This document shows positions 16,114 through 43,646 of a stretch of DNA of 48,475 nucleotides, piece after piece. Both the position numbers and the translations under genes were made by a program. Below the pieces are notes generated by a model. It was not told the origin of the DNA. It saw nothing but the letters and a program-made list of their open reading frames with translations, and ran no database searches. The stretch spans positions 1-48,475 of the forward strand of contig NZ_JALHMP010000031.1 of assembly GCF_022843985.1 (NCBI RefSeq), given 5' to 3'. The number at the start of each line of letters is the position of its first letter. Within the stretch, counting starts at the first letter, position 1. The DNA is from Phreatobacter sp. GTDB taxonomy: Bacteria > Pseudomonadota > Alphaproteobacteria > Rhizobiales > Phreatobacteraceae.

Positions 16114-16183
16114 CCCGAAAGAGACGCAACGCGTGACACACGCTGATGCCCGAAAGAGACGCAACGCGTGACACACGCTGATG
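16114..16183 (+). repeat. Perfect 35-bp tandem duplication spanning a start codon
   Basis: The 35 bp at 16114-16148 are repeated exactly at 16149-16183. The second copy contains the GTG start (16168) and first five codons of the FAD oxidoreductase. The first copy carries the same GTG at 16133, which opens a 12-codon reading frame whose TGA (16169-16171) overlaps the real GTG as GTGA. Recent slippage or unequal exchange is the simplest origin, since no base differs. Confidence 0.9.
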
Positions 16184-17340: not shown

Positions 17341-17356
17341 CCCCGGAGCCTCCCCC

Positions 17357-20031: not shown

Positions 20032-20169
20032 GGTCGTTTCATTCCTCTTGTTGTCTTCAGCATCAAAGACGAAGCGTTGCGACGCCGCCAGTCGGCGAGG
20101 GGCATGACCCAGTCGCGGCGGAGGGCCTTGACGCGGGCGTGCGGCAACCCCCTTGAAGGACGCGGGTGA

Positions 20170-20214
20170 TGAAACCATAATGGTTGCATATTGGGGTCGA
20201 TATTCATGGTTTCA
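20170..20214. promoter_or_regulatory. Inverted repeats at the antitoxin promoter
   Basis: A perfect palindrome AACCA-TAA-TGGTT lies at 20173-20185. A wider inverted pair, TGAAACCAT (20170-20178) and ATGGTTTCA (20206-20214), brackets the region, the right arm covering the antitoxin ATG. Such spaced inverted repeats fit binding of two ribbon-helix-helix antitoxin dimers and autorepression. Confidence 0.6.
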
Positions 20215-29100: not shown

Positions 29101-29331
29101 GATGTTGGCGACGGCGTCCTCGACCCTTTTGGTGATCTGACTCTCAAGCTCGGCCGGCGCGGCGCCCGCCTGGGTCACCCGGATCTGAACCAGCGGCACG
29201 TCGATATTGGGGAACCGCGTGATCGGCAGGTTGTTGAAGCTCATCCATCCGAGGAAGCAGAGGACGATGAACAGCACGATCGAGGGGACCGGCTGGCGGA
29301 TGGAATAGGCGGAGACGTTGAACGAGGACAT
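26152..29331 (-). CDS. RND multidrug efflux permease (HAE1/AcrB-like)
   Basis: 1059-residue inner-membrane proton-driven exporter, trimeric in the family. Twelve membrane segments with two large periplasmic loops are expected. The proton-relay aspartates Asp403-Asp404 (GILVDDAIVEIEN) and the relay lysine in GIVTKNAIMLVDF are present, as is the ITRFPNIDVP porter start. A GAGGAGG site precedes the ATG, 12 nt after the adaptor gene. Substrates unknown. No outer-membrane channel gene is adjacent, so a TolC-type partner must be encoded elsewhere. Confidence 0.95.
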   Translation of the reverse strand: MSSFNVSAYSIRQPVPSIVLFIVLCFLGWMSFNNLPITRFPNIDVPLVQIRVTQAGAAPAELESQITKRVEDAVANITGVKNVISNLTDGQSSTVVEFRLEVNADRALNDVKDAVAKIRADLPRNIDEPIIERLDIENQAIMTVAVAAPAKTLEQLSWFVDDTVKRELQGLRGIGRISRNGGVLREVRVALDPSRLMALGITAGDVNRQLRATNVDLAGGQGEIGGQQQSIRTLAGAESVEDLAATRIVLPGGRAVVLSDLGTVTDLYEEPRSFTRLNGETPTVAFQVFRSKGASDVRVAALARAKIDELRAAHPDIAFNEIDNSVNYTAGNHTSAMTMLLEGAGLTVIVVFLFLRDFRATLISAVALPLSIIPTFWVIDMLGFSMNLVSLLAIILVTGILVDDAIVEIENIVRHMKMGKSPYRASMEAADEIGLAVIAISLTIVAVFAPVSFMGGIAGQYFKQFGLVVAIAVLFSLLVARLITPMLAAYFLRPHAHQEPKDGIFMRAYLRFLSVTIRFRYLTLLAGIGVFALSIWAVKFLPTGFIPFPDEARFVISMELPPGSTLDDTRERSDRLAKLIREKTPEVESVLVIGGASPVGTLEVRRATVIVRLVHKTKRERKQRQIQQATSPLFTEIPDIRAWYVNDRGERELSIIVRGNDGANLSKAVAALEAEMRQLPGFVNVAATAGLDRPEIRVVPKTDEAARYGITTDQISEAVRIATIGDVAANLAKFNAGDRLVPIRVQLDTDARARLDILSALTVTTPAGQQVPLTAVADITFGQGLSSIERYNRVRRVNIGTDLGRGLELGPALEKVYSLPAARNLPAGVSFQRGGDAEIMQEVFQGFALAMGTGLLMVLGVLVLLFHSVFQPLTILMSLPLSLGGVIIALLLTNNAISMPVVIGILMLMGIVTKNAIMLVDFAVEKTREGMPRREAILDAGRKRARPIIMTTLAMGAGMIPPALGSGDGGEFRAPMAIAVIGGLLVSTVLSLVFVPSFYTVMDDVGRFFGWAFGRFVGPVDEPDTAAAGHGGHGAPPLLLPADASPPGEAPRPIRVAAE

Positions 29332-29343
29332 GGCGCGGCCTCC

Positions 29344-30492
29344 TCAGCGCGGGACGGCCGCGACGGGCGTCACCCGGTCGCCGTTGCGAACGAAACTGCC
29401 GGAGACCGAGACGACCTCTTCGCCCTCGGCGATGCCCTCGCGGATCTCGACCCTGCCGGCGGCGCGCAGGCCGACGACGACGGTGCGGGTCTGCACGATG
29501 CCGTCCTTGATCACCTGGACGGCCGTGGTCGGGCCGAACATCACGGCCGAGAGCGGCACGGTCAGGCCGGTGGAACGCGCCACCTCGACGGTGGCGCGGC
29601 CGAAGGCGCCGAGCGGCGGGCGCTCGTCGTCGGTCAGGGTGACCCGGACGCGGCCGAGCCGGTTGGTGCGGTTCACCTCGGGCGCCACCAGGCGGACCTT
29701 GCCTGCGAGCGGGCGCGTGTAGCCGGCCGCCTCGATGGTCGCCGGCTGGCCGGGCCGGATGCGGGCGAGCGTCGTCTCCGGCACGTCGGCCTCGAGCTCG
29801 ACCTCCGACTCCGCGATGATGCGGAACAGCGGGTCGCCCGCCGCCGCCGCCAGGGCGCCGAGGCGGGCGGTGCGGCGCGAGATGGTGCCGCCGATCCTGG
29901 CCCTGATCTCGGTGCGGGACATGCGCAGCTCGATGTCGCGGCGCTGGGCGCGGGCCAGCACCAGGTCGGCCTCGGCGAGGGCGAGGGCGTTGGTGACCGA
30001 ATCCAGCCGGGCGGCGGTTGTGCGCGCGGCGCTGGTGCGCTGGTCGAGCGCGTCGGCCGTCGCCGCGCCGCTGCGCTGCAATTGCTGGGTGCGCTCCAGC
30101 TGCTGCTGGGCGAGGGTGCGGGCCGAGGTGGCCTCGACGATGGCGGCACGGGCCTGGGCGATGGCGGCATCGGCGCGGGCGAGCTGGGCGCTGTTCTGGG
30201 CGAGCTGGACGTCCAGCATCTCGCGGTTGAGGCGGGCGAGCACCTGGCCGGCGGTGACCTTGTCGCCCTCCTCGGCGAGGATCTCGGTGATCGTCAGGCC
30301 GTCGACCTCGGGCGAGACCATGACCTCGTCGCGGGCAACGAAGGAACCGGTGAGGATGACGGTCTCGCGCAGCTCGGAGCGGGCAGCCGGGGTCACCGTG
30401 ACCGCGGGCGCAGCGCCCTGGCCAGCCGCAGCGCCGCCGAGGGCGGCGGTCGCGACGGCGGCGAGAAGGAGGGTGCGGGCGAGCATGATCAT
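29344..30492 (-). CDS. RND efflux periplasmic adaptor (membrane fusion protein)
   Basis: 382 residues linking the RND pump to an outer-membrane channel. N-terminal signal peptide (LARTLLLAAVATAALGGAAA), no clear lipobox cysteine; then lipoyl and barrel parts around a long alpha hairpin (about 95-185; many Ala/Gln/Arg heptads such as LAQQQLERTQQLQRSG), and the C-terminal membrane-proximal domain with EGEEVVSVSGSFVRNG. Its ATG overlaps the TetR stop by 4 nt, so regulator, adaptor and pump share a transcript. Confidence 0.93.
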   Translation of the reverse strand: MIMLARTLLLAAVATAALGGAAAGQGAAPAVTVTPAARSELRETVILTGSFVARDEVMVSPEVDGLTITEILAEEGDKVTAGQVLARLNREMLDVQLAQNSAQLARADAAIAQARAAIVEATSARTLAQQQLERTQQLQRSGAATADALDQRTSAARTTAARLDSVTNALALAEADLVLARAQRRDIELRMSRTEIRARIGGTISRRTARLGALAAAAGDPLFRIIAESEVELEADVPETTLARIRPGQPATIEAAGYTRPLAGKVRLVAPEVNRTNRLGRVRVTLTDDERPPLGAFGRATVEVARSTGLTVPLSAVMFGPTTAVQVIKDGIVQTRTVVVGLRAAGRVEIREGIAEGEEVVSVSGSFVRNGDRVTPVAAVPR

Positions 30493-31115
30493 GGTGTTGT
30501 CAGCCTAGCTGAGGCCGGCGTGGCGGGTGGCAGCAACATGGACCGCAGGATGGAGAACATCAGGGCCACATGCGGCTTCGGATCGAAATTCACATCGCGG
30601 GCGCGCCGCAGCATGAGGCCGTCGGCATAGGTGATGAGGAACTGCACGGCGGGGTCGAGATCGGCGTCCGGAGCGGTCTGACCACGATCCCGCGCCATTT
30701 CCAGCGCAAAGCGGATCTTGGTCTCGATGAACTGGTCGATCTTCTTACGCAGGGCGCCGATCTGCGGATTACGCGCGACCTCCGACATGATCTCGACCCA
30801 GAGCTGGCAGCTCTCGCGCGGCTCCTCGATCATGTGGAAGCGGGCGAGCGCCTCGAAGGCCTCCCAGATGTCCGGCGCCCTGGCGAGGGCGGAAAACCCG
30901 GCGCCGAGTTCGGCGAAGTCGCGCTCGCACAGGCCCTCGATCATCGCCTCCTTGGAGGGAAAGTAGCGATAGAGGTTGCCGGGGCTCATGCCCGCCTCGC
31001 CGCAGATGTCGCTCATCGAGGCGCCATGGAAGCCGGAGCGCACGAAGCAGCGCTCGGCGGCATCGAGGATGGCCGCCTTCCGGTCTATGCGCTGGGCACT
31101 GTCGATGCGCGGCAT
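30489..31115 (-). CDS. TetR-family repressor of the RND operon
   Basis: 208 residues. HTH at about 14-58 (KAAILDAAERCFVRSGFHGA, then MSDICGEAGMSPGNLYRYFP), with a helical ligand domain after. The ATG at 31115 starts the family sequence; the longer reading would run through the operator. First gene of the efflux operon and coupled to the adaptor, so ligand release would raise pump and repressor together. The candidate operator lies about 70 nt upstream. Confidence 0.92.
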   Translation of the reverse strand: MPRIDSAQRIDRKAAILDAAERCFVRSGFHGASMSDICGEAGMSPGNLYRYFPSKEAMIEGLCERDFAELGAGFSALARAPDIWEAFEALARFHMIEEPRESCQLWVEIMSEVARNPQIGALRKKIDQFIETKIRFALEMARDRGQTAPDADLDPAVQFLITYADGLMLRRARDVNFDPKPHVALMFSILRSMLLPPATPASARLTTP

Positions 31116-31183
31116 GGCGATGGGGGATCCTCGCGGGTAGAGCCTGATTAGGGCAGGGCGGCAAGGGGCGCAACAAAAAAGAG

Positions 31184-31197
31184 AATGAACATTCATT
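31184..31197. promoter_or_regulatory. TetR operator candidate AATGAA-CA-TTCATT
   Basis: Perfect 6-2-6 palindrome within an A/T-rich island of an otherwise GC-rich gap, upstream of the efflux regulator. ATGAA/TTCAT palindromes of this form are typical of AcrR/BepR-type repressor sites. Confidence 0.6.
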
Positions 31198-31406
31198 TTT
31201 ATGAGACATCCGATGACGCATGCCCGATGGCCTCCCGCCCGGCCGCGGGCGCGCCGGACAGCCGTTCGGCTGGCGTTCATCGGCCGGACACAGAGGCAGC
31301 GAAAAGCCGTCTTGCATGCGCCATCAACCGATGGTGACCTCGCCCGGTCGGCACGGGAGACGCAGTCTGGCGCCAGCCCGAACCCGACCCACGGAAGGAC
31401 ACGCCC

Positions 31407-31733: not shown

Positions 31734-32034
31734 ACCGCAGGCTCGTCACCGTCCGCGCCGGGAGGCGCGGGCGGTGCGGTCGTCGTCAGGTGTTCGCCTG
31801 CACGACCCAAGTGCGTCCTTCGAGGCTCGCCTCCTGACGATGCTGACGCATCGCCGGGGCTCGCACCTCAGGATGAGGAGGGTGGGTGTCCTGCATTCCG
31901 GCCGGCAAATGTGAGCAGCGCAGGTTCGTCCGGCGTTGTGCCGGTTACCACCCCCCTCATCCTTGAGGTGCGAGCGAAGCGAGCCTCGAAGGACGCACTT
32001 GATCCGTGCAGCGCGGCTCCTCGCGATGGCACCC
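31734..32034. repeat. Convergent gap holding two inverted copies of a second repeat
   Basis: The 301-nt gap holds no gene. A repeat begins AAGTGCGTCCTTCGAGGC at 31809 and runs to about 31887; an inverted copy lies at 31950-32001. The inverted copy has its GCTCGC arms nearly adjacent, whereas the first has about 28 extra bases in that loop. A fragment of the same family occurs at 40731-40753 and a diverged one at 48397-48417. The pair can form a long stem and probably ends transcription on both strands. Confidence 0.8.
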
Positions 32035-33198
32035 TCAGGCGGAACACTCGCGAATCAGCCCGGCGAGGAAGGCATCGCACCGGGCGAGTTCCGACACCTC
32101 GACCCATTCGTCGGGCTGGTGCGCCTGGGCGATGTCGCCCGGGCCGCAGATGACCGTGGAGATGCCGGCCGCCTGGAACAGGCCGGCCTCGGCGCCATAG
32201 GGCACGACCTGGATGCCATTGTCGCCGGTGAGCCGGCGGGCAAGGCGCTCGGCCTCGCCGTCTTCTTCACGCACCAGCGGCTCACCGCCGACCCGCCAGG
32301 TGAGGTTGACGCCCGAATCGGGATGCACGGCCTTCATCGCCGGCTCGATCTCGCGGCGGACGAAATCCTCGTATTCGCGCACATAGCGCATGCCGTCATC
32401 GCCGGGCACCACGCGGATGCCGGTGACGAAGTGGCAGTCGAGGGCGGTGATGTTGTGGGCGGTGCCGCCGGAGAGCGTGCCGACATGGATCATGGTCCAG
32501 CCGGGATCGAAATAGGGCGCGCCGCCATGCGCCTCCGCCTCGGCCTTGTTCTTCAGGTCGCGCTCCTCGAGCCAGGTCACCAGCCGCGCGGCGACGAAGA
32601 TGGCGGAGACGCCGGCATAGCGGTTGGAGGAATGGACCTCGTGGCCGCGCACATGGGTGTCGATGCGCAGATAACCCTTGTGGCCGGTGACCACCTTCAT
32701 GCGGCTCGGCTCGCCGACGATGCAGACGGAGGGCCGCGTCCAGTCCTTGCCGAGGCGGGCAATGAGGGCGCGGGCGCCGTCCATGCGGATTTCCTCATCC
32801 GCCGTCAGGCAGATGTGGATGGGGCGCTTCAGGTCGGCGGCAACCATGGCCGGCACGGCGGCGAGCACGCAGGCGTCGAAGCCCTTCATGTCGCAGGCGC
32901 CGCGACCATAGAGCCGGTCACCCTTCGCCGTCAGGGTGAAGGGATCGGTGGTCCAGGGCTGACCCTCGACCGGCACGACGTCGAGATGGCCGGAGAGCAC
33001 GATGCCACCGTCGACCTGCGGGCCGATCGTCGCCCAGATATTGGCATTGCGGCCATCGGGCATCGGCACGATCTCGCAGCCGACCCCATGGGCGGCGAGA
33101 TAGTCGCGGATGAAATCGACGAGGTCGAGATTGCTGGCGTCGGAGACCGAGGGGAAGCCGACGAGGCGCTCGAGCAAGGCGGTGCTGGTGAGTGTCAT
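32035..33198 (-). CDS. argE: ArgE-like acetylornithine deacetylase (M20A)
   Basis: Zinc-dependent hydrolase of 387 residues; ArgE removes acetate from N-acetylornithine in arginine synthesis. Motifs: VLSGHLDVVPVEG (metal His/Asp), GRGACDMKGFDA, LTADEEIRMDGA with the catalytic glutamate, VGEPSRMK and GHEVHSS in the dimer domain. The start at 33198 has AGGGA close by; a start 36 nt upstream is possible. It diverges from five M20D amidohydrolases of the same clan, so a role in deacylating other N-acyl amino acids is an alternative. Confidence 0.87.
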   Translation of the reverse strand: MTLTSTALLERLVGFPSVSDASNLDLVDFIRDYLAAHGVGCEIVPMPDGRNANIWATIGPQVDGGIVLSGHLDVVPVEGQPWTTDPFTLTAKGDRLYGRGACDMKGFDACVLAAVPAMVAADLKRPIHICLTADEEIRMDGARALIARLGKDWTRPSVCIVGEPSRMKVVTGHKGYLRIDTHVRGHEVHSSNRYAGVSAIFVAARLVTWLEERDLKNKAEAEAHGGAPYFDPGWTMIHVGTLSGGTAHNITALDCHFVTGIRVVPGDDGMRYVREYEDFVRREIEPAMKAVHPDSGVNLTWRVGGEPLVREEDGEAERLARRLTGDNGIQVVPYGAEAGLFQAAGISTVICGPGDIAQAHQPDEWVEVSELARCDAFLAGLIRECSA

Positions 33199-33314
33199 GT
33201 CCCTGAGGGAGCCGATGGCAGCCATGCACGTCAAGGGGAGGCCATCGCATGGCAGCCTGTTGACCGGCCCGCCCCGCTCCGGTTCTGTTGGCCTTTCTCC
33301 CTCGGGACATGTCC

Positions 33315-34478
33315 ATGCCCATCGTCAATCGCATCGCCGGCCTTCACGCGGAGGCCACGGCGTGGCGCCGCGATTTCCACCAGCATCCCGAACTGCTCTT
33401 CGATCTGCCGCGCACATCGGCGATCGTGGCGGAGAAGCTGCGCGCCTTCGGCTGCGACGCGGTCGTCACCGGCATCGGCCGCACCGGCGTCGTCGGTCTG
33501 ATCCACGGGGCGAAGACCACGTCGGGCCGGGTGATCGGCCTGAGGTCGGACATGGACGCACTGCCGCTCACCGAGATCACCGGACTGCCCCATGCCTCGA
33601 CCGTGCCGGGACAGATGCATGCCTGCGGCCATGACGGCCATATGGCGATGCTGCTGGGCGCGGCGAAATATCTCGCCGAGACCCGCAACTTCGACGGCAC
33701 TGTCGCGCTGATCTTCCAGCCGGCGGAAGAGGGCGGCGGCGGCGCCCGCGCCATGGTGGCCGACGGCCTGATGGAGCGCTTCGGCATCCAGGAGGTCTAT
33801 GGCATGCACAACAACCTGGACCCGGCCGGGACGCTCGCGGTGCGGGCCGGGCCGACCAGCGCGGCGGCCGACAAGATCCACATCCTCGTCGAGGGCAAGG
33901 GCGGCCATGCCGCCAAGCCGCACCTCGCTGTCGACACGGTCCTGGTCGCCGCCCAGATCATCATCGCGGTGCAATCCGTGGTGGCGCGCAACATCGACCC
34001 GCTGGGCAGCGCCGTCGTGTCGATCTGCGCCTTCAATGCCGGCCATGCCAACAATGTCATCCCGCAGACGGCGGAACTGCTCGGCACGGTGCGCACGCTC
34101 ACCAAGGACATCCAGGCCCTGGTCGAGCAGCGGCTGCGGCAGGTGGTCGAGATGACCGCCGAAAGCTACGGCGCCAGGGCGACCTTCACCTATACCTATG
34201 GCTGCCCGATGGTGGTGAACCACGCCGCCGAGGCCGAGCATGCCGCGGCGGTGGCCGCCTCCATCGTCGGCGAGGCCCTCGTGCGCCGCGACAAGCCGCC
34301 GACCATGGGCGCGGAGGATTTCTCCTTCATGCTGGAGGAGCGGCCCGGCTGCATGATCGGCATCGGCCAGGGCGGGGCGTTCGGCGTCCATCATCCCGCC
34401 TATGACTTCAACGACGAGATCCTGCCCATCGGCATGAGCTACTGGGCCCGCCTCGTCGAAACCCGCATGCCGGCCTGA
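33315..34478 (+). CDS. M20D amidohydrolase, array copy 1
   Basis: 387-residue hippurate/IAA-amino-acid hydrolase family member, expected to split an N-acyl amino acid. Predicted metal ligands are Cys104 and His106 (HACGHDGH), Glu138-Glu139 (PAEEGGGG), His165 and a C-terminal HHP. The family motif MHNxPGLPxG is altered to MHNNLDPAGT (about 164-173), near the active site. It is closest to copy 2: both share EERPGCMIGIGQGG and ILPIGMSYWARLVETR. The ATG at 33315 is best spaced from GGGA; an ATG 6 nt earlier is in frame. A weak TTGACC at 33260 could be a -35 box. Copy 2 follows after 22 nt. Confidence 0.92.
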   Translation: MPIVNRIAGLHAEATAWRRDFHQHPELLFDLPRTSAIVAEKLRAFGCDAVVTGIGRTGVVGLIHGAKTTSGRVIGLRSDMDALPLTEITGLPHASTVPGQMHACGHDGHMAMLLGAAKYLAETRNFDGTVALIFQPAEEGGGGARAMVADGLMERFGIQEVYGMHNNLDPAGTLAVRAGPTSAAADKIHILVEGKGGHAAKPHLAVDTVLVAAQIIIAVQSVVARNIDPLGSAVVSICAFNAGHANNVIPQTAELLGTVRTLTKDIQALVEQRLRQVVEMTAESYGARATFTYTYGCPMVVNHAAEAEHAAAVAASIVGEALVRRDKPPTMGAEDFSFMLEERPGCMIGIGQGGAFGVHHPAYDFNDEILPIGMSYWARLVETRMPA

Positions 34479-34500
34479 CCGCCCGCCACCGGAGGCCAAG

Positions 34501-35664
34501 GTGCCGATCGTCAACCGCATCGCCGCATTGCACGAGGAGGCCGCCGGCTGGCGGCAGGATTTCCATCGCCATCCCGAGCTCGGCTTCGACCTGCCCCGCA
34601 CGTCGGCCATCGTCGCCGACCGCCTCCGGGACTTCGGCTGCGACGCGGTGATCACCGGCATCGGCCGCTCGGGCGTCGTCGGCATCATCCGTGGCGCGCG
34701 GACGACCTCGGGACGGGTGGTCGGACTGCGGGCCGACATGGACGCGCTGCCCATCCACGAGTCCACCGGCGCAGACCATGCCTCGACAGTGGCGGGAAAG
34801 ATGCATGCCTGCGGCCATGACGGGCACATGGCCATGCTGCTGGGCGCGGCGAAATATCTCGCCGAGACGCGCAATTTCGATGGCACCGCCGTGCTGATCT
34901 TCCAGCCCGACGAGGAGGGGGGCCACGGCGCCCGCGCCATGATCGCCGACGACCTGATGGACCGGTTCGGCATCCACGAGGTCTATGGCATGCACAACAG
35001 CCAGGACCCGGTCGGCACGATCTCGGTGATCTCCGGCGCCGCCAGCGCCGCCGTCGACTGGATCCACATCGCCATCGAAGGCAAGGGCAGCCACGCGGCG
35101 CGGCCGCATCTGGCCGTCGACACCGTCCTCGTCGCGGCCCATATCATCGCCGCTGTCCAGTCCATCGCGGCGCGCAACGTTGATCCGCTCGCCAATGCCG
35201 TCGTCTCGCTCTGCCATGTCGATGCGGGCGCCGCCTTCAACGTCATTCCGCAGACCGCGGTGCTGCGCGGCACGGTGCGGACGCTGTCGAAGGCGGTGCA
35301 GGACCTGGTCGAGGCGCGGCTGCACCAGATCGTCGCCGGCGTCGCGGCGACCTTCGGCGCGAGCGCCACCCTGACCTATGACCGCGCCTGCCCGAGCGTG
35401 ATGAATACCGGGCCCGAATGCGACCATGCGGCCCGCGCCGCGGCCTCGGTTCTCGGCGAGACCGGGGTCTGGCGCGACGTCGACCCGGCCATGGGCGGCG
35501 AGGATTTCGCCTTCATGCTGGAGGAGCGGCCGGGCTGCATGATCGGCATCGGCCAGGGCGGCACCTACGGCCTGCACCACCCCTCCTACGATTTCAACGA
35601 CGCGATCCTGCCCATCGGCATGAGCTATTGGGCGAGGCTCGTCGAAACCCGCCTGCCGAGCTGA
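34501..35664 (+). CDS. M20D amidohydrolase, array copy 2
   Basis: 387 residues, collinear with copy 1. It has HACGHDGH, but the acidic motif reads QPDEEGGHGA instead of QPAEEGGGGA, and the MHNxPGLPxG motif is replaced by MHNSQDPVGT. Both glutamates are retained, so the enzyme is probably active with changed specificity. GTG start after a good GGAGG site. Only 22 nt from copy 1, so the two are surely co-transcribed. Confidence 0.92.
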   Translation: MPIVNRIAALHEEAAGWRQDFHRHPELGFDLPRTSAIVADRLRDFGCDAVITGIGRSGVVGIIRGARTTSGRVVGLRADMDALPIHESTGADHASTVAGKMHACGHDGHMAMLLGAAKYLAETRNFDGTAVLIFQPDEEGGHGARAMIADDLMDRFGIHEVYGMHNSQDPVGTISVISGAASAAVDWIHIAIEGKGSHAARPHLAVDTVLVAAHIIAAVQSIAARNVDPLANAVVSLCHVDAGAAFNVIPQTAVLRGTVRTLSKAVQDLVEARLHQIVAGVAATFGASATLTYDRACPSVMNTGPECDHAARAAASVLGETGVWRDVDPAMGGEDFAFMLEERPGCMIGIGQGGTYGLHHPSYDFNDAILPIGMSYWARLVETRLPS

Positions 35665-35705
35665 TAGAAGGGCCGCAAGGCCACCGCCCTTTCCGGAGAA
35701 TGACC

Positions 35706-36872
35706 ATGCCCATCAACAACCGCATCGCCTCCCTCCACGACGAGGTGACCGCCTGGCGCCGCGACCTGCACGAGAACCCCGAGTTGATGTTCGACGTGCA
35801 CCGCACCGCCGGCATCGTCGCCGACAAGCTGCGCGCATTCGGCTGCGACGAGGTCGTCACCGGCATCGGCCAGACCGGCGTCGTCGGCATCATCAAGGGC
35901 CGCAACACCGGCTCGGGCAAGGTGATCGGGCTGCGCGCCGACATGGACGCGCTGCCGCTCAGCGAGATCACCGGCCTGCCGCATGCCTCCAAGGTGCCGG
36001 GGAAGATGCATGCCTGCGGCCATGACGGCCACACGGCGATGCTGCTGGGCGCGGCCAAGTACCTCGCCGAGACGCGCAATTTCGACGGCACGGTGGCGGT
36101 CATCTTCCAGCCGGCGGAAGAGGGCGGCGGCGGCGGCCGCGAGATGGTCAATGACGGGATGATGGACCGTTTCGGCATCCAGGAGGTCTATGGCATGCAC
36201 AATGCGCCGGGCCTGCCGGTGGGCAAGTTCGCCCTGCGCGCCGGCCCGCTCATGGCCGCGGCCGACCGCATCCAGATCGATGTCGAGGGCAAGGGCGGCC
36301 ATGCCGCCCGCCCGCACCAGTCGATCGACACGATCCTCATCGCCTCGCAGATCGTCAACGCGGTGCAGTCGATCGTCTCGCGCAATGTCGACCCGCTCGG
36401 CAATGCGGTCGTCTCCATCTGCGCCTTCAATGCCGGCTTCACCGACAATGTCATCCCGCAGACGGCGACGCTGCTCGGCACGGTGCGCACGCTCACCCCT
36501 GAGATGCGCGATCTCGTCGAGAAGCGGCTGCACACCGTCGTCGAGGGCACCGCGACCGTCTATGGCGGCACCGCCAAGCTCACCTATTTCCGCGACTATC
36601 CGGTGACCCGGAACCATGCCGAGAACGCCGTCTTCGCCGGTGATGCCGCCGCCGCGGTGGTCGGCGACGAGGGTGTCAACCGCGACACCGTGCCGGTGAT
36701 GGGCGGCGAGGACTTCTCCTTCATGCTGGAGGCCCGCCCCGGCGCCTTCATCTTCATCGGCCAGGGCGACACCGCCTCCGTCCATCACCCCGCCTATGAC
36801 TTCAACGACGAGATCATCCCCATCGGCATGAGCTACTGGGCCAAGCTCGTCGAGAGCCGCCTCACGGCCTGA
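35706..36872 (+). CDS. M20D amidohydrolase, array copy 3
   Basis: 388 residues with all family motifs: HACGHDGHTAML, PAEEGGGGG, canonical MHNAPGLPVG, EGKGGHAARPH in the dimer domain and MGGEDFSFML near the end. It pairs with copy 4: both end EARPGAFIFIGQGDTASVHH. The ATG at 35706 follows GGAG by 7 nt; an ATG 6 nt upstream is in frame. The 41-nt gap after copy 2 has no evident terminator. Confidence 0.93.
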   Translation: MPINNRIASLHDEVTAWRRDLHENPELMFDVHRTAGIVADKLRAFGCDEVVTGIGQTGVVGIIKGRNTGSGKVIGLRADMDALPLSEITGLPHASKVPGKMHACGHDGHTAMLLGAAKYLAETRNFDGTVAVIFQPAEEGGGGGREMVNDGMMDRFGIQEVYGMHNAPGLPVGKFALRAGPLMAAADRIQIDVEGKGGHAARPHQSIDTILIASQIVNAVQSIVSRNVDPLGNAVVSICAFNAGFTDNVIPQTATLLGTVRTLTPEMRDLVEKRLHTVVEGTATVYGGTAKLTYFRDYPVTRNHAENAVFAGDAAAAVVGDEGVNRDTVPVMGGEDFSFMLEARPGAFIFIGQGDTASVHHPAYDFNDEIIPIGMSYWAKLVESRLTA

Positions 36873-36932
36873 TCCCCATTCCCGGCGCGGCCCTCGTCCG
36901 CGCCGGCCTTCCCTCTGCGCAGGACCACCGAC

Positions 36933-38099
36933 ATGCCCATCGTCAACCGCATCGCCGCCCTCCACGAGGAGGTCACCGCCTGGCGCCGCGACATCCACGC
37001 ATATCCGGAGCTGCAGTTCGACGTGCACCGCACCGCCGGGATCGTCGCCGACAAGCTGAGGGCGTTCGGCTGCGACGAGGTCATCACCGGCATCGGCCGC
37101 ACCGGCGTCGTCGGAATCATTCGCGGCCGAACCGACAGATCGGGCAAGGTGGTGGGCCTGCGCGCCGACATGGACGCGCTGCCGCTGACCGAGATCACCG
37201 GCCTGCCGCATGCCTCGAAGGTGCCGGGGAAGATGCATGCCTGCGGCCATGACGGCCACACGGCCATGCTGCTCGGCGCCGCCAAATACCTCGCCGAGAC
37301 GCGCAACTTCGACGGCACCGTCGCGGTCATCTTCCAGCCGGCGGAGGAGGGCGAGAAGGGCGGCGAGGCCATGGTGCTCGACGGCATGATGGAGCGCTTC
37401 GGCATCCAGGAGGTCTATGGCATGCACAATGCGCCGGGCCTGCCCGTCGGCCATTTTGCCATCCGTCCGGGGCCGATGCTGGCGGCGGTCGACAATTTCC
37501 GCATCCATGTCGAGGGCAAGGGCGGCCATGCCGCCAAGCCGCATCTGGCGGTCGACACGATCCTTGCCGGCGCGCATATCGTGGCGGCGGTGCAGTCGAT
37601 CGTGGCGCGCAATGTCGACCCGCTGAAGAGCGCCGTTATCTCCATCTGCGCCTTCAATGCCGGGTTCGCCAACAATGTCATTCCGCAGACGGCGGAGCTG
37701 CGCGGCACGGCGCGCACCCATGACGCAGAGGTGCGCGACCTGATCGAGGTCCGGCTGCGGGAGGTCGTCGAGAAGACCGCCGCCGCCTTCGGCGCCACGG
37801 CCAGGGTGGAGCATGTGCGGGTGGTGCCGGCCACCGTCAACGATCCCGCTTATACGCCGCATGCGGTCGCCGCGGCGGCCGCCGTGGTCGGCGACAAGGC
37901 GGTGAACGACGACGCGCCGCAGATCATGGGCGGCGAGGATTTCTCCTACATGCTCGAGGCGCGGCCCGGCGCCTTCATCTTCATCGGCCAGGGCGACACC
38001 GCCTCCGTGCATCACCCCGCCTATGATTTCAACGACGAGATCATCCCGCTCGGCATGAGCTACTGGGCGAAGCTGGTCGAGAACCGCATGCCGGCGTGA
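36933..38099 (+). CDS. M20D amidohydrolase, array copy 4
   Basis: 388 residues. Canonical metal motifs; the acidic motif is PAEEGEKGGEAM, so the glycine run after the glutamates is replaced by a charged stretch unlike the other copies. MHNAPGLPVG is intact. Highly similar to copy 3, particularly in the final 45 residues. AGGA ribosome-binding site; 60 nt after copy 3. Confidence 0.93.
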   Translation: MPIVNRIAALHEEVTAWRRDIHAYPELQFDVHRTAGIVADKLRAFGCDEVITGIGRTGVVGIIRGRTDRSGKVVGLRADMDALPLTEITGLPHASKVPGKMHACGHDGHTAMLLGAAKYLAETRNFDGTVAVIFQPAEEGEKGGEAMVLDGMMERFGIQEVYGMHNAPGLPVGHFAIRPGPMLAAVDNFRIHVEGKGGHAAKPHLAVDTILAGAHIVAAVQSIVARNVDPLKSAVISICAFNAGFANNVIPQTAELRGTARTHDAEVRDLIEVRLREVVEKTAAAFGATARVEHVRVVPATVNDPAYTPHAVAAAAAVVGDKAVNDDAPQIMGGEDFSYMLEARPGAFIFIGQGDTASVHHPAYDFNDEIIPLGMSYWAKLVENRMPA

Positions 38100-38139
38100 C
38101 CCCAGGCGTCCGGCCAGCCCCTCGCCTCCGCGCGCGTGC

Positions 38140-38154
38140 CGCGCTAGCCTCCCG
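38140..38154 (+). promoter_or_regulatory. Possible promoter segment before copy 5
   Basis: A 15-nt string containing GCTAGCCT recurs exactly before the erythronate-dehydrogenase-like gene (42613-42627), at nearly the same distance from the ATG (27 versus 33 nt). TAGCCT could be a -10 box, but no -35 partner is obvious. Confidence 0.25.
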
Positions 38155-38180
38155 CTTTCGCCTGCCCTTCGGAGATTTCC

Positions 38181-39347
38181 ATGCCCGTCATCAACCGCGT
38201 TGCCGACCTCCACGACGAGATCACCGCCTGGCGCCGTGACTTCCACGAAAATCCGGAGCTGCTCTACGACGTGCACCGCACTGCCGGCATCGTCGCGGAG
38301 AAACTGAAGGCCTTCGGCTGCGACGAGGTCGTCCCCGGCATCGGCCAGACCGGCGTCGTCGCCGTCATCAAGGGGCGCAAGAGCGGCTCGGGCAAGGTCA
38401 TCGGCCTGCGCGCCGACATGGACGCGCTCCCCATCGAGGAAGCCACCGACCTGCCCTACAAGTCCAAGGTGCCGGGCAAGATGCACGCCTGCGGCCATGA
38501 CGGCCACACCGCCATGCTGCTCGGCGCGGCGAAGTACCTCGCCGAGACGCGCAATTTCGACGGCACGGCGGTGGTCATCTTCCAGCCGGCGGAAGAGGGA
38601 GGCGGCGGCGGCGACGCCATGGTCAAGGACGGCCTGATGACCCGCTGGAACATCCAGGAGGTCTATGGCCTGCACAACATGCCGGGCATTCCCGTCGGCA
38701 CGTTCGCCGTGCGCAAGGGCCCGGCCATGGCGGCGGCGGACCGCTTCATCATCGACATCGAGGGCAAGGGCGGCCATGGCGCCATGCCGCATCTGTGCGT
38801 CGATCCGGTCCAGGCGGGCTTTGCCATCGGGCTGGCCATGCAGACCATCGTGGCGCGCAATGTCGATCCGATCGAGAGCGCCGTGGTCTCCATCACCTCG
38901 GTCAAGGCCGGCGAGGCCTTCAACGTCATCCCGCAGACCCTGCGCATGCTCGGCACGGTGCGCACCTTCAAGCCGGAGATCCAGGATCTGGTGGAGGCGC
39001 GGATGAAGGAGCTGGTGGTGAATGTCGCCAAGGGCATGGGCTGCGTCGCGACGGTCGACTACCTGCGCGGCTATCCCGTCACCTTCAACCATGCCGACCA
39101 GACCGACTTCGCCGTCAAGGTGGCGCAGTCCGTCGTCGGCGCCGACAAGGTCGATCCCAACACGCCGCCGCTGATGGGCGCCGAGGACTTCTCCTACATG
39201 CTCAACGAGCGGCCGGGCAGCTACATCTTCCTCGGCAATGGCGACACCGCCGCCTGCCACCACCCCGCCTACAATTTCGACGACGCCGCGATCCCGGTGG
39301 GCACCAGCTACCTCGCCAAGCTCGTCGAAGCGGCCATGCCGGCGTGA
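38181..39347 (+). CDS. M20D amidohydrolase, array copy 5
   Basis: 388 residues, the most divergent and most canonical member. It has HNMPGIPVG, GKGGHGAMPH (copies 1-4 have GGHAA), HACGHDGHTAML, PAEEGGGGG and MGAEDFSYML. The others may derive from a copy-5-like ancestor. GGAG site 7 nt before the ATG; 81 nt after copy 4, a gap that contains a possible separate promoter. Its stop overlaps an alternative GTG start of the next gene. Confidence 0.93.
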   Translation: MPVINRVADLHDEITAWRRDFHENPELLYDVHRTAGIVAEKLKAFGCDEVVPGIGQTGVVAVIKGRKSGSGKVIGLRADMDALPIEEATDLPYKSKVPGKMHACGHDGHTAMLLGAAKYLAETRNFDGTAVVIFQPAEEGGGGGDAMVKDGLMTRWNIQEVYGLHNMPGIPVGTFAVRKGPAMAAADRFIIDIEGKGGHGAMPHLCVDPVQAGFAIGLAMQTIVARNVDPIESAVVSITSVKAGEAFNVIPQTLRMLGTVRTFKPEIQDLVEARMKELVVNVAKGMGCVATVDYLRGYPVTFNHADQTDFAVKVAQSVVGADKVDPNTPPLMGAEDFSYMLNERPGSYIFLGNGDTAACHHPAYNFDDAAIPVGTSYLAKLVEAAMPA

Positions 39348-39355
39348 GCGGGACC

Positions 39356-40327
39356 ATGACCGCAAACCCCGTCGCGCTCGGCATTGTCGGCGCCGGCATC
39401 ATGGGCGAGCGCCTGCTCGGCGCCGCCCTGTCCCAGGCGGCCGATGTCGTCGGCATTACCGGCATCTGGGACCCCTCGGCGGAAGCCATGGCGCGCATGG
39501 GCGCGGCCTTTCCGGGCGTGCCGCGCCTTGCCGATGCGGCGGCGGTGATCGCCGCCTGCGACGCGCTCTATATCGCCTCGCCGCCGTCGTCGCACCTCGC
39601 CCATGCCCGGGCGGCTCTGGCAGCCGGAAAAGCCGTGTTCTGCGAAAAGCCGCTGGCGGTGGATGTCGCCGATGCCCGCGCCTTCGTCGCCGAGGCGGGC
39701 GCCAGGGGCGCCGTCAACTTCCCCTTTGCCTCCTCCTTCGGGGTGGCGACCCTGCAGCGCTGGATCGCCGAGGGCGCGGTCGGCACCGCGCGCCAGATCA
39801 CCATCGAGGTCGCCTTCGCCACCTGGCCGCGCTCCTGGCAGAGGGACGCGGCGGGCTGGCTGGACGGGAGGGCGCAAGGCGGCTTCACCCGCGAGGTGGT
39901 GTCGCATTTCCTCTTCCTGTCCCGCCGGCTCGGCGGGCCGCTGGCGGGCCTGAAGGCGACGGCGGAGTATCCGGAGGCGGGGAAGTCCGAGCGCCGCATC
40001 GCCGCGACGCTGACCGCGGGCGGCCTGCCGGTGACGCTCACGGGCAGCGTCGGCACGACCGAGAAGGACGACCACAACATCTGGATGATCGCCGGCGATG
40101 CGGGCGCCGTCCGGCTGCGCGACTGGTCGATCGCCGAGCGGCGGATGGCGGACGGCTCCTGGCAGCCCGACCCGGAGGCGCTGCCCAACGAGAAGATGCG
40201 GCCGCTGGTGCTGCGCCGGCAGCTCGAAGGCGTCGCGGCGCTGGTCCGCGGCCAACCGCACCACCTCGCGACGCTGGCCGAGGCGCTGGAGGTGCAGGAG
40301 GTGGTGGAGGCGATCCTGAAGGGGTGA
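39356..40327 (+). CDS. Gfo/Idh/MocA-family oxidoreductase
   Basis: NAD(P)-dependent dehydrogenase of 323 residues, often acting on sugars or cyclitols. N-terminal Rossmann motif ALGIVGAGIMGERLLGAAL (about 7-25), YIASPPSSHLAHARAAL, and the EKP motif in VFCEKPLAVDV (about 96-106) with the catalytic-region lysine; then the C-terminal substrate domain. The ATG at 39356 is used; an in-frame GTG at 39344 would overlap the previous stop. It is 8 nt after the amidohydrolase array and likely shares its transcript, so its substrate may be a product of those hydrolases. Confidence 0.87.
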   Translation: MTANPVALGIVGAGIMGERLLGAALSQAADVVGITGIWDPSAEAMARMGAAFPGVPRLADAAAVIAACDALYIASPPSSHLAHARAALAAGKAVFCEKPLAVDVADARAFVAEAGARGAVNFPFASSFGVATLQRWIAEGAVGTARQITIEVAFATWPRSWQRDAAGWLDGRAQGGFTREVVSHFLFLSRRLGGPLAGLKATAEYPEAGKSERRIAATLTAGGLPVTLTGSVGTTEKDDHNIWMIAGDAGAVRLRDWSIAERRMADGSWQPDPEALPNEKMRPLVLRRQLEGVAALVRGQPHHLATLAEALEVQEVVEAILKG

Positions 40328-40774
40328 TTCTGGGAAGAGGAAGAGCCCTCCCTTACCCTCCCCGCCCCCGCGGGCAGGGAGACCACGACGCCGCGCCACT
40401 GCCTCACCGATCCGCCAGGCCCAACCCATCGATAGTCCAGGGAGGCCGAAGTCTCCCTCCCTGCGACAGCGGGGAGGGTAAGGGTGAGGCCTTCGGCAGT
40501 CTCGGTCGCTGCCGAGGCCCGCTGTGCCCCTCAGAACCGCAGCGCCGTTGACCGCCACCATGGCAGTTCCATGATAGCCACCAACCCTTCCGTCATGGCC
40601 GGGCTTGTCCCGGCCATCCACGACTTGAACACGCGGCTTAAGGCAAAATTCGTGGATGCCCGGGACAAGCCCGGGCATGACGGGTGAGGTTCGGTCGGGA
40701 GAACCGCGACGGGCGATCACCTTTCCGGCAGCGAGCCTCGAAGGTCGCACTTGGCTGATGCAGGGCGCCCGCCC
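40328..40774. repeat. Convergent gap with an inverted pair and repeat fragments
   Basis: The 447-nt gap has no gene. It holds an inverted pair, 40350-40365 and 40469-40484 (16 bp perfect, CCCTTACCCTCCCCGC type), copy 3 of the palindromic element (40590-40683), and a truncated piece of the second repeat (40731-40753). This is an accumulation of repeats in one 3'-3' gap. Confidence 0.8.
40590..40683 (-). repeat. Palindromic intergenic repeat, copy 3 (inverted)
   Basis: Reverse orientation relative to copies 1, 2 and 4, lying between the Gfo/Idh/MocA and GMC genes. Both hairpins and the CCACGA/CGTGG inner boundary are kept. Confidence 0.85.
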
Positions 40775-42400
40775 CTACCTCTTCCCATCCTCCAGGATCA
40801 TCCGCGCGCCCTTCTCGGCGATCATCAGCGTCGGCGTGTTGGTATTGCCGGAGGTGATGGTCGGCATGACGGACGCATCCGCCACCCTGAGCCCCTCCAC
40901 CCCGATGACGCGCAGGCGCTCGTCCACCACCGCCAGCGGGTCGGAGGCGAGGCCCATCTTCGCGGTGCCGACGGGATGGAAGATGGTGGTGCCGATGTCG
41001 CCGGCGGCCTTCGCCAGGCTCTCGACATCGTCGCCGATCACCGGGCCGGGGAGATATTCCTGCGGACGATAGGGCGCCAGCGCCGCCTGGCCCATCAGCC
41101 GCCGTGTGACGCGCAGCGAATCCGCCGCCACCTGCCGGTCCTCGTCGGTAGCGAGATAGTTCGGCGCGATGAGGGGCTTGTCGGCCGGATCGGCGGAGCG
41201 GATGTGGACGGAGCCACGCGAGGTCGGCCTGAGATTGCAGGGCGCGACCGTCACGGCGGGGAAGCGGTGCAGCGGGTCGCCGAACTTGTCGAGCGACAAG
41301 GGCTGGACGTGGAACTGGATGTTGGCCCGTTCCTGGGCGGGATCGGAGCGGGTGAAGATGCCGAGCTGGCTCGGCGCCATGGTCAGCGGGCCGGTGCGGC
41401 GGAGGAGATATTCGAGCCCCATCAGGCCGCGCTTGAACAGGTTGTGGTAGGTCTCGTTCAGCGTCTTGATGCCGTCGACCCTGTAGATGGCGCGGATCTG
41501 CAGGTGGTCCTGCAGATTGCCGCCGACGCCGGGCTTCTCCTTCACCACGGGGATGCCGTGGCGGGCCAGCACCTCGCCATGGCCAATGCCGGAGAGTTCG
41601 AGGATCTGCGTCGAGCCGATGGAACCGGCGGTGAGCACGACCTCGCCGCGACAGCGGGCGACGACGCTCTCGCCGCCCTGGCGGAACTGCACCCCCGTCA
41701 CCCGGCCGTTCTCCACGATCACCTTCTCCACCAGCACGCCGGAGAGGAGATCGAGATTGTCGCGGGCGTCGATGACCGGCTTCAGGAAGCCGCGGGCCGC
41801 CGACCAGCGCAGGCCCTTCTTCTGGTTGACGTGGAAATAGGCGGTGCCCTCGTTGTCGCCGGTGTTGAAATCGTCGAGGGGGCGGACGCCCATCTGCACC
41901 GCCGCCTCGCGCACCTTGTCGAGCAGGTCCCAGCGCACGCGCGGCGCCTCCACCCGCCATTCGCCGCCGGCGCCGTGGTGCTCGCCCTCCCCGAGGAAAT
42001 GATCCTCGAGCCTGCGGAAGACCGGCCGGACATCGTCCCAGCCCCAGCCGGCGAGGCCGAGCTGGCGCCAATGGTCATAGTCGGCGCTCTGGCCGCGCAT
42101 GGTGATCATGGCGTTGATGGCGGAGGAGCCGCCGATCACCTTGCCGCGTGGATAGATCAGCGAGCGGCCGTTGAGGCCGGCCTCCGCCTCGGTCCTGAAC
42201 ATCCAGTCGGCGCGCGGATTGCCGATGGCGAAGAGATAGCCGACGGGAATGTGGAACCAGATCCAGTCATCCTTGCCGCCGGCCTCCAGCAGCAGGACCC
42301 GGTTCCTGGGATCGGCGGAGAGGCGGTTGGCCATGAGGCAGCCGGCCGTGCCGGCGCCGCAGACGATATAGTCCCACTCACCCTCGATGGTGCGGGCCAT
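40775..42400 (-). CDS. GMC-family oxidoreductase (choline-dehydrogenase-like)
   Basis: FAD-dependent alcohol dehydrogenase of 541 residues. FAD motif DYIVCGAGTAGCLMANRL (about 10-27) and LLLEAGG, the GGSSAINAM signature, and C-terminal HPVGTAKMG with the catalytic histidine, then NTNTPTLMIAEKGA. The alcohol substrate is unknown; choline, alkanol and polyethylene-glycol dehydrogenases share these motifs. The start at 42400 has a strong GGAGGGGA site. Divergent from the erythronate-dehydrogenase-like gene. Confidence 0.92.
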   Translation of the reverse strand: MARTIEGEWDYIVCGAGTAGCLMANRLSADPRNRVLLLEAGGKDDWIWFHIPVGYLFAIGNPRADWMFRTEAEAGLNGRSLIYPRGKVIGGSSAINAMITMRGQSADYDHWRQLGLAGWGWDDVRPVFRRLEDHFLGEGEHHGAGGEWRVEAPRVRWDLLDKVREAAVQMGVRPLDDFNTGDNEGTAYFHVNQKKGLRWSAARGFLKPVIDARDNLDLLSGVLVEKVIVENGRVTGVQFRQGGESVVARCRGEVVLTAGSIGSTQILELSGIGHGEVLARHGIPVVKEKPGVGGNLQDHLQIRAIYRVDGIKTLNETYHNLFKRGLMGLEYLLRRTGPLTMAPSQLGIFTRSDPAQERANIQFHVQPLSLDKFGDPLHRFPAVTVAPCNLRPTSRGSVHIRSADPADKPLIAPNYLATDEDRQVAADSLRVTRRLMGQAALAPYRPQEYLPGPVIGDDVESLAKAAGDIGTTIFHPVGTAKMGLASDPLAVVDERLRVIGVEGLRVADASVMPTITSGNTNTPTLMIAEKGARMILEDGKR

Positions 42401-42612
42401 GGCTCCCCTCCGGCACTGTCGCGCGGGCTCTCGACGGCGGCCCTTCGACCGATCCATCGCGCGCGGCGTGGCGAAGGTCAATCGGGACGGAGGGGGGAGC
42501 CGGTATGGCTGCGACCGGCCTTCGATGATCCTGCTGCCGGGCGTAGACTCCACGGAACCGCAAAGCTGCAACCCGCCCCCTCGCGCGTGCCCCATTCCCT
42601 GCCGGCGCCGGG

Positions 42613-42627
42613 CGCGCTAGCCTCCCG
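42613..42627 (+). promoter_or_regulatory. Possible promoter segment before the denD-like gene
   Basis: Same 15-nt string as at 38140-38154, 33 nt before the ATG. See that entry; the assignment is tentative. Confidence 0.25.
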
Positions 42628-42659
42628 TCCAAATCGTTTGAAAAGAAGAGGACACGTCC

Positions 42660-43646
42660 ATGCATATCCTGATCATCGGCGCCGCCGGCATGGTCGGCCG
42701 CAAGCTCACCGAGAAGCTCGTCCGCGACGGCGCGCTCGGCGGCAAGGCGATCACGGAATTCTCCCTCGTCGACGTGGTGGCCCCCCAGAAGCCCGCCGGC
42801 TTTGCCGGCAAGGTGACGAGCTGGGCCGTCGACATCTCCTTCCCCAACACCGCGGGGCCGATGGTCGCCGGACGGCCGGACGTCATCTTCCATCTCGCCG
42901 CCATCGTCTCCGGCGAGGCCGAGGTCGATTTCGACAAGGGCTACCGCATCAATCTCGACGGCACGCGGCAGATCTACGAGGCGATCCGCCAGGAAGGCGT
43001 CAAGGCGCCCTACCATCCGCGCGTCGTCTTCACCTCCTCCATCGCCGTCTATGGCGCGCCGTTCCACGAATTCATCGAGGACGAGTTCTTCCACACGCCG
43101 CTGACCAGCTACGGCACGCAGAAGTCGATCGGCGAGCTCCTGCTCACCGACTATTCGCGCAAGGGCTTCTTCGACGGCGTCGGCATCCGCCTGCCGACCA
43201 TCTGCGTGCGTCCGGGCAAGCCGAACAAGGCGGCCTCGGGCTTCTTCTCCAACATCATCCGCGAGCCGCTGGTGGGGATGGAGGCCGTGCTACCGGTGGG
43301 CGACGACGTCGTCCACACCCATGCGAGCCCGCGCTCTGCCGTCGGCTTCCTCATCCATGCCGCGACCATGGACACCGCCCAGCTCGGCTGGCGGCGCAAC
43401 CTCTCCATGCCCGGCGTGGTGGCGACGGTGGGCGAACAGCTCGAGGCCCTGCGCAAGATCGGCGGCGAGAAGGCCCTGAAGCTCGTGCGCCGCGAACCGG
43501 ACGACCTCATCATCCGCATCGTCTCCGGCTGGTCGCAGCGCTTCAACGCCAAGCGCGCGGCCGAACTCGGTTTCAGGGCGGAGACGAGCTTCGAGGAGAT
43601 CGTCCGTGCCCATGTCGAGGACGAGCTCGGGGGCAAGGTCGCCTGA
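42660..43646 (+). CDS. denD: D-erythronate dehydrogenase-like SDR epimerase-fold enzyme
   Basis: 328-residue extended SDR. Rossmann motif [14 protein letters not shown] at the start, [23 protein letters not shown] with the catalytic serine, and [13 protein letters not shown] with the Tyr-Lys pair; then the [19 protein letters not shown] segment typical of the DenD group, which oxidises D-erythronate to 2-oxo-tetronate. No other tetronate genes (denK/otnC type) are next to it, so the substrate is uncertain. GAAGAGG ribosome-binding site. sfsA starts 4 nt after the stop. Confidence 0.85.

Follow-up and report, generated by a model that had tools for sequence, protein, structure and literature searches.

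A tandem array of five genes encoding M20D amidohydrolases, designated g1 to g5, was identified in a 48,475-nucleotide stretch of DNA from Phreatobacter sp. (contig NZ_JALHMP010000031.1, assembly GCF_022843985.1). This stretch, referred to below as the window, is one whole contig of a 4.33-Mb genome in 53 contigs. The array comprises the following genes:

33315–34478, + strand: g1 (copy 1), M20D amidohydrolase of 387 aa, with a putatively remodelled acyl pocket
34501–35664, + strand: g2 (copy 2), M20D amidohydrolase of 387 aa with a GTG start and a putatively remodelled acyl pocket; the most divergent and fastest evolving copy
35706–36872, + strand: g3 (copy 3), M20D amidohydrolase of 388 aa, nearest the family norm
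36933–38099, + strand: g4 (copy 4), M20D amidohydrolase of 388 aa
38181–39347, + strand: g5 (copy 5), M20D amidohydrolase of 388 aa, a separate lineage

The five genes are complete open reading frames (ORFs) on one strand, separated by spacers of 22, 41, 60 and 81 bp; the ORF listed for g3 (35418–36872) begins too early by comparison with relatives. All five pass TIGR01891, scoring 318–359 bits against a cut-off of 153.75, and contain the M20 catalytic (PF01546) and dimerisation (PF07687) domains above the curated Pfam cut-offs. These results bear out a preliminary description of the locus as five consecutive same-strand M20D genes of 387–388 residues, and the motifs quoted there were found as described. 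Scores for the profiles of the CpsA carboxypeptidase (NF040868, 302–382 bits) and of DoeB2, an ectoine-pathway deacetylase (NF038260, 269–336 bits), stayed below the respective cut-offs of 500 and 550 in every copy. The M20 fold was modelled for g3 only, where an AlphaFold2 model based on a 44-row alignment reached a mean predicted local distance difference test (pLDDT) score of 94.8, with 4EWT, 1YSJ, 6SLF and 1XMB as the best matches in the PDB. As the N-termini, read by eye, contain no signal-peptide-like stretch, the enzymes are probably cytoplasmic.

Pairwise identity among the copies ranges from 56 to 76% in protein and from 67 to 81% in DNA, and the longest identical run is 47 bp. Copies g3 and g4 share 76% protein identity and nearly identical C-terminal tails. 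Two more full-length relatives (47–51% identity) and one weak partial match were found on other contigs of the same genome. For comparison outside the genus, one outlier (L098:8282, 32% identity) was removed from 39 proteins, leaving 38 relatives. Mean identity to these relatives was 0.580, 0.552, 0.635, 0.621 and 0.621 for g1–g5, and the copies departed from 148 family-conserved columns at 14, 17, 2, 7 and 4 positions, respectively. By both measures the copy nearest the family norm is copy 3, and not copy 5 as had been proposed.

The suggested search for the same array elsewhere recovered it in 11 other genomes of the genus: all 12 Phreatobacter genomes searched contain four or five copies at E ≤ 1e-140 (five in 7, four in 5). 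Copies g3, g4 and g5 are present in 12 of 12, while g1 and g2 are variably present.

Active site and acyl pocket

Catalysis in the M20 family is described as an attack on the amide carbonyl by a metal-bound water that the catalytic Glu activates, with a loop of the dimer partner extending into the active site (PMC11511702, PMC7209930). The ligand contacts of N-AGA from Corynebacterium (6SLF, M20D), including its metal site, are named in the structure paper (PMC7209930). These contacts were transferred to the array by sequence alignment; the paper's numbers equal the chain numbers minus one, and positions are given here in g3 numbering. The dinuclear metal site, formed by C104 (the bridging Cys), H106, E139 and H165, and the catalytic Glu E138 align to N-AGA in all five copies. 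The alpha-carboxylate clamp, R261 and N248, is likewise conserved in all five, which points to substrates with a free alpha-carboxylate. Neither these seven mapped residues nor H360, a metal ligand assigned by conservation, varies among the five copies or in any of the 38 relatives.

The acyl side of the pocket differs from copy to copy. At the acyl-pocket equivalents 167, 182, 183 and 331, g1 carries NTST, g2 SASA, g3 ALMV, g4 AMLI and g5 MAML. Fixation was examined in six or seven species per copy, out of 12. The four positions are fixed across species in g3 and g4, in g5 but for one residue, and in g2 except for 331 (A or P); in g1 they are fixed in five species. Over the five mapped acyl positions (these four and the invariant Gly333), a mean of 3.4 states was observed, compared with 1.88 protein-wide (p 0.0024 against random positions). 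When acyl variability was taken relative to overall divergence, a fraction of 0.002 of random sets of five outsiders reached the ratio of g1–g5.

Copies g1 and g2 are the most altered. Both carry S, T, N, A or G at three or more of the four positions, a pattern found in 0 of 38 outsiders, and a small or polar set at three or four positions was seen in 0 of 10 further examined relatives with the substitution T110M. Both have also lost P168 and G169, and the loop after the metal ligand H165 is one residue shorter. At Ala347, an Ala in each of the 38 relatives, both carry Cys. The pocket differences thus lend residue-level support to the earlier suggestion of diversified substrate specificity, stopping short of proof.

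We consider it reasonably probable that the array represents a genus-specific expansion of cytoplasmic M20D metallo-amidohydrolases that share catalysis and the carboxylate clamp and differ in acyl preference. The products of g1–g5 are probably N-acyl-amino-acid or dipeptide hydrolases serving in scavenging. Each copy would use a metal-bound water to split the amide linkage of an N-acyl-amino acid or a dipeptide-like compound. All copies would grip the amino-acid carboxylate alike and prefer different acyl groups, with g1 and g2 accepting smaller or more polar ones. Together with a neighbouring ArgE-like deacylase (described below), they would allow the cell to recover amino acids from scarce conjugates. 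More tentatively, and with somewhat less than even confidence, g1 and g2 may form a new M20D specificity class, confined to the genus as sampled, in which a formerly hydrophobic acyl pocket is now built of small or polar residues, the loop is shorter and without Pro-Gly, and Cys replaces Ala347. Such enzymes would cleave polar or very short acyl groups, and the whole array would constitute a graded panel of acyl specificities on a constant clamp.

Several observations weigh against the main interpretation, that of a genus-specific expansion with differing acyl preference. The pocket was mapped by sequence alignment from one distant relative (~30% identity), and the alignment left out one of its contacts, Met-354. 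A mean of 2.84 states at the acyl positions was obtained for random sets of five outsiders, 9.5% of which reach 3.4. In G003 and G009, the first array gene differs from g1 at two or three of the four acyl positions; it branches at the base of g1 and g2, not with g1, in the 80-protein tree presented in the next section and is therefore a g1 by position only. Enrichment of copy-specific fixed positions near the ligand contacts in sequence was not significant (p 0.07–0.15). No transporter or regulator gene lies inside the array, and the genomic context is weak. Finally, T110M was rejected as a genus-unique signature of g1 and g2: HACGHDGHMAM occurs in 22 genomes outside the genus (397 searched, 31 matching, 9 of the genus).

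An alternative that we regard as possible but unlikely is dosage, in which the copies share one reaction and are kept for amount or for differing expression, not for different substrates. The identical catalytic and carboxylate-binding residues of all five copies fit this account, as do the similarity of g3 and g4, their near-identical C-terminal tails and the signs of gene conversion there in two relatives. It accommodates less readily the acyl-pocket equivalents, which differ by copy but for any one copy are largely constant from species to species, and the 14 and 17 departures of g1 and g2 from family-conserved columns. Should the copies be redundant, the locus would be a plain case of an old tandem family.

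If the copies do differ in acyl preference, their interest lies in comparison. In the portions of the literature covered, a residue-level account of acyl preference is given for only one M20D structure (6SLF). The array offers five natural variants with the same catalytic residues and genomic address, named pocket differences and counterparts in up to 12 genomes, and is thus a ready series for tying pocket residues to specificity. Phreatobacter is a strictly aerobic genus whose type species was isolated from ultrapure water, according to PMC6742797. The array may also bear on how a freshwater bacterium living with few nutrients apportions the scarce conjugated amino acids between paralogous enzymes.

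Origin and maintenance of the copies

The history of the array was examined with a careful tree of 80 proteins (55 from the genus and 25 outsiders selected from 95) and a quick tree of 152 rows. In the 80-row tree, g1–g4 form a genus-only clade (43 rows, 100/100), which has a support of 93 in the 152-row tree. Because g1–g4 form this clade, the duplications that produced them took place in the genus stem, before the genus radiated. Copy g5 forms a clade of its own (12 rows, 100/100) beside Microvirga (93/80). Constraining all 55 array proteins together cost 27.65 log units, a marginal result in the approximately unbiased (AU) test (p 0.039). Copy g5 is an older, separate lineage, and its exclusion from g1–g4 is marginally supported. 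Repeated tandem duplication, as first proposed, was thus upheld for copies 1–4, with copy 5 grouping outside them; the tree and synteny show that g1–g4 originated beside another M20D gene, g5. In the 152-row tree, the long-branched L038 (Cohaesibacter), which is outside the 25 outsiders of the 80-row tree, is sister to g1–g4 (96).

Within the genus clade, g1 with g2 (16 rows, 100/100) and g4 (12 rows, 100/99) are firm groups, and a g3-type clade of 14 rows has a support of 97/93. The pairing of copies 1 and 2 in the preliminary description was therefore upheld. The pairing of copies 3 and 4 fared less well: the two join weakly (81/84), the EARPGAFIF motif they share is the commonest form among relatives, and their tails show signs of conversion in two relatives.

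Separate acquisition of the five genes, with chance or transfer bringing them together, is improbable. The position of g5 outside g1–g4 and beside Microvirga, and the AU result against one clade, are in its favour. Against it stand the genus-only clade of g1–g4 and a position beside ArgE and the Gfo/GMC genes that is common to the genus. Moreover, among the matches listed at E ≤ 1e-160 (199 genomes of the order), no match to g1 outside the genus exceeded 65% identity. Separate acquisition, named at the outset as an explanation that would overturn tandem duplication, is contradicted for g1–g4 by their clade and shared flanks and is possible only for copy 5.

The ratio of nonsynonymous to synonymous divergence (dN/dS) between orthologs was estimated by the Nei-Gojobori method in the same five species, with 10 pairs per copy, giving 0.088, 0.199, 0.060, 0.090 and 0.091 for g1–g5. 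Over six or seven species the values were 0.19, 0.19, 0.09, 0.11 and 0.105. The array is under purifying selection, with g2 the loosest. Copy g1 was rejected as a fast evolver, since its value of 0.19 stemmed from counting the G003 and G009 genes as orthologs and became 0.088 with the five tree-firm species. Following duplication, as the tree and synteny show, purifying selection maintained the array, while copies were gained and lost at its g1/g2 end.

Gain and loss are seen in several genomes. No g1/g2-type copy is present in G006 and G011, which carry a second g3-type copy. A single g1/g2-type copy each was found in G001, G005, G008 and G009, and G001 has an additional copy at the base of g3 and g4. 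These absences, together with the dN/dS of 0.199 for g2 against 0.060–0.091 for the other copies, could be taken to mean that selection on g1 and g2 is relaxed, that both are decaying and that drift accounts for their altered pockets. We find this very improbable, as g1 is as constrained as g4 and g5, and g2 remains far below 1. No array match in the genus genomes is interrupted by a stop codon (contig ends truncate two g2/g5 matches), and the catalytic residues are retained in 13 of 13 examined g1/g2-type genes. Copy g2 also retains S, A and S at 167, 182 and 183, and W188, in 6 of 6 species.

Synonymous differences between copies, expressed as the proportion pS, ranged from 0.32 to 0.42 and from 0.27 to 0.41 at identical residues, near but below the saturation value of 0.46. 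The preliminary description had stressed a nearly identical core from HACGHDGH to AETRNFDGT. This core is indeed conserved in all five copies, but the family consensus shows it to be typical of M20D proteins in general, and its synonymous divergence equals that of the rest of the genes; its sameness is consequently no sign that the duplications were recent. The idea that the core was homogenised recently was likewise rejected, with pS of 0.27–0.50 in codons 91–130 compared with 0.32–0.42 for whole genes and the 0.46 expected at saturation. Gene conversion was scanned for as windows in which paralogs within a species exceed their identity to orthologs. The clearest signal was a converted-looking patch shared by g3 and g4 at approximately codons 336–385 in G007 and G004, with up to 0.99 identity. 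Smaller windows were scattered over other pairs; the longest stretch among them covers five windows of g1/g2 in G002 (codons 191–240).

The arrangement of the array also varies. G000, G001, G003 and G007 each have five consecutive copies on a single contig, and G006, G009 and G011 have four consecutive copies; G010 has four in a row and the first 51 residues of a fifth at a contig end. A frame of the enoyl-CoA hydratase/isomerase type separates g4 from g5 in G005 (L127, 10997–11914), and a similar frame occupies this place in G008 (L130, 11360–12277); the Pfam assignment was made on the G005 copy only. In the one-contig genome G002, the array is split over three places (g1-g2-g3; g4; g5), and fragments of the draft G004 (L123, L124, L126) have the same neighbours at the breaks as G002 (L120, L121). 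At the break between g3 and g4 in both genomes, g3 adjoins a LysR-type gene (Pfam on the G002 gene only) and g4 adjoins an ApbA-DAO pair, which in the window occupies 16168–18346. These neighbours point to rearrangement within the array in part of the genus. Another enoyl-CoA hydratase/isomerase-type frame was found upstream of the displaced g5 in G002 (L121, 12785–13681).

An assembly error with collapsed or expanded repeats, also raised at the outset, has a negligible probability, since the copies are too divergent in DNA (67–81% identity, longest identical run 47 bp) and arrays occur in 11 other genomes, contiguously in the one-contig G001, for which the matching paper reports a long-read assembly (PMC6742797).

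Comparison with other genomes and known enzymes

The claim that so long a run is unusual was supported: the longest run outside the genus in the sampled genomes is three genes. A sample of 297 genomes of the order included 10 Phreatobacter genomes. Of the remaining 287, 150 contain a single match or a pair at E ≤ 1e-140 and no genome exceeds two, counted on the best six candidates per genome. At the level of the class (115 genomes, one of them Phreatobacter), no run outside the genus is longer than the three genes of G313 (E ≤ 1e-130). Both counts cover close members at these cut-offs and leave runs of more diverged members uncounted. Adjacent M20D copies were also observed in at least 9 of 80 named loci, taken from 590 confirmed ones. 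Three genes are adjacent in five of these loci and two in the other four, and all nine have been assigned to Roseobacteraceae or Paracoccaceae. These adjacency counts are a lower bound, because the sequence of several loci stops close to the gene. No paper on such an array appeared among the titles and abstract openings listed from the open-licence literature. The array is an old, conserved and unusually long example of a well-known enzyme family.

The three-gene arrays of Roseobacteraceae and Paracoccaceae (L055, L067, L071, L085 and L101) resemble the Phreatobacter array in being tandem and on the same strand, and several have an ArgE-like gene and oligopeptide ABC transporter genes nearby. 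They differ in gene number and fall in other clades of the tree, which indicates an independent expansion. The small or polar acyl set was found in 0 of 9 tested members of L055, L067, L071 and L101.

Among characterised structures, N-AGA resembles the array proteins in fold, in the dinuclear metal ligands with bridging Cys, in the catalytic Glu and in the Arg/Asn clamp, but shares only ~30% identity with them. The N-AGA residues contacting the Gln side chain, D301 and N191, correspond to Y, R, R, R, R and to K, W, R, N, R in g1–g5, so that no copy has both. The four variable acyl residues also differ from those of N-AGA, except for L at 331 in g5 and L at 183 in g4. YxeP of Bacillus subtilis (1YSJ) is the closest solved relative by sequence (300 bits) and the second by Foldseek, but is only ~40% identical. 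The plant indole-3-acetic acid (IAA)-amino acid hydrolase ILL2 (1XMB) shares the fold and core motifs at ~34% identity. The analysis gave no support to the auxin- or hippurate-type substrates raised in the preliminary description, and nothing in it speaks against them. The enzyme of PMC12017989, a D-aminoacylase-like barrel enzyme, was set aside as a comparison.

Neighbouring genes

The array is flanked by the following genes:

32035–33234, − strand: ArgE-like M20A deacylase (NF005710, 451 bits, cut-off 412; TIGR01892, 383 bits, cut-off 297.7)
39356–40327, + strand: Gfo/Idh/MocA-type oxidoreductase (PF01408, 76 bits), within a longer ORF at 38795–40327
40775–42595, − strand: GMC oxidoreductase (PF00732 and PF05199), convergent with the array

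The ArgE-like gene is divergent from the array, with 80 bp between its longest ORF (TTG start) and g1, although its true start may lie further in. All 10 relative loci that cover this junction have it directly beside the leading gene of the array. The Gfo/Idh/MocA-type gene begins 8 bp past g5, a spacing that suggests the two are probably co-transcribed. It adjoins g5 in 9 of 11 relatives and was not found in G006 and G011. The GMC oxidoreductase lies beyond the Gfo/Idh/MocA position in 11 of 11 relatives. Homologues of the GMC gene (71–74%) lie close to a lone M20D gene in L045, L047, L051 and L052, 4 of the 80 named loci, and the M20D proteins of these four loci cluster with g1–g4 (support 97, 152-row tree). 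A promoter and terminator scan of 31800–43000 gave nothing exceeding chance.

Within 9 kb of M20D genes, mostly in Rhodobacterales loci, an ArgE-like gene (44–51% identity to that of the window) was observed in 12 of the 80 loci, oligopeptide ABC permease clusters in 12 and binding-protein clusters in 11, the transporter clusters being assigned by Pfam on one representative each. These associations fit the scavenging of peptides or acyl-amino acids.

Other genes were noted around the array. A predicted D-erythronate dehydrogenase (42660–43646; NF043036, 355 bits, cut-off 325) lies past the GMC oxidoreductase. Left of the array, 26152–31280 encodes an AcrB-type RND pump, an HlyD-type adaptor and a TetR regulator, a set present in whole or in part in 7 of 10 relative loci reaching left of ArgE and not in G001, G006 and G011. 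An M81/MlrC-type metallopeptidase homologue at 18544–20178 scored 139.6 bits, far below the microcystinase cut-off of 999. Among the 80 named loci, D-alanyl-D-alanine carboxypeptidase and CobW-type GTPase genes were found near a single M20D gene in 23 each, as counts of gene clusters with Pfam on one representative each. These loci belong mostly to Rhizobiaceae and Phyllobacteriaceae (for example, L035 and L072) and raise a possible zinc or cell-wall link.

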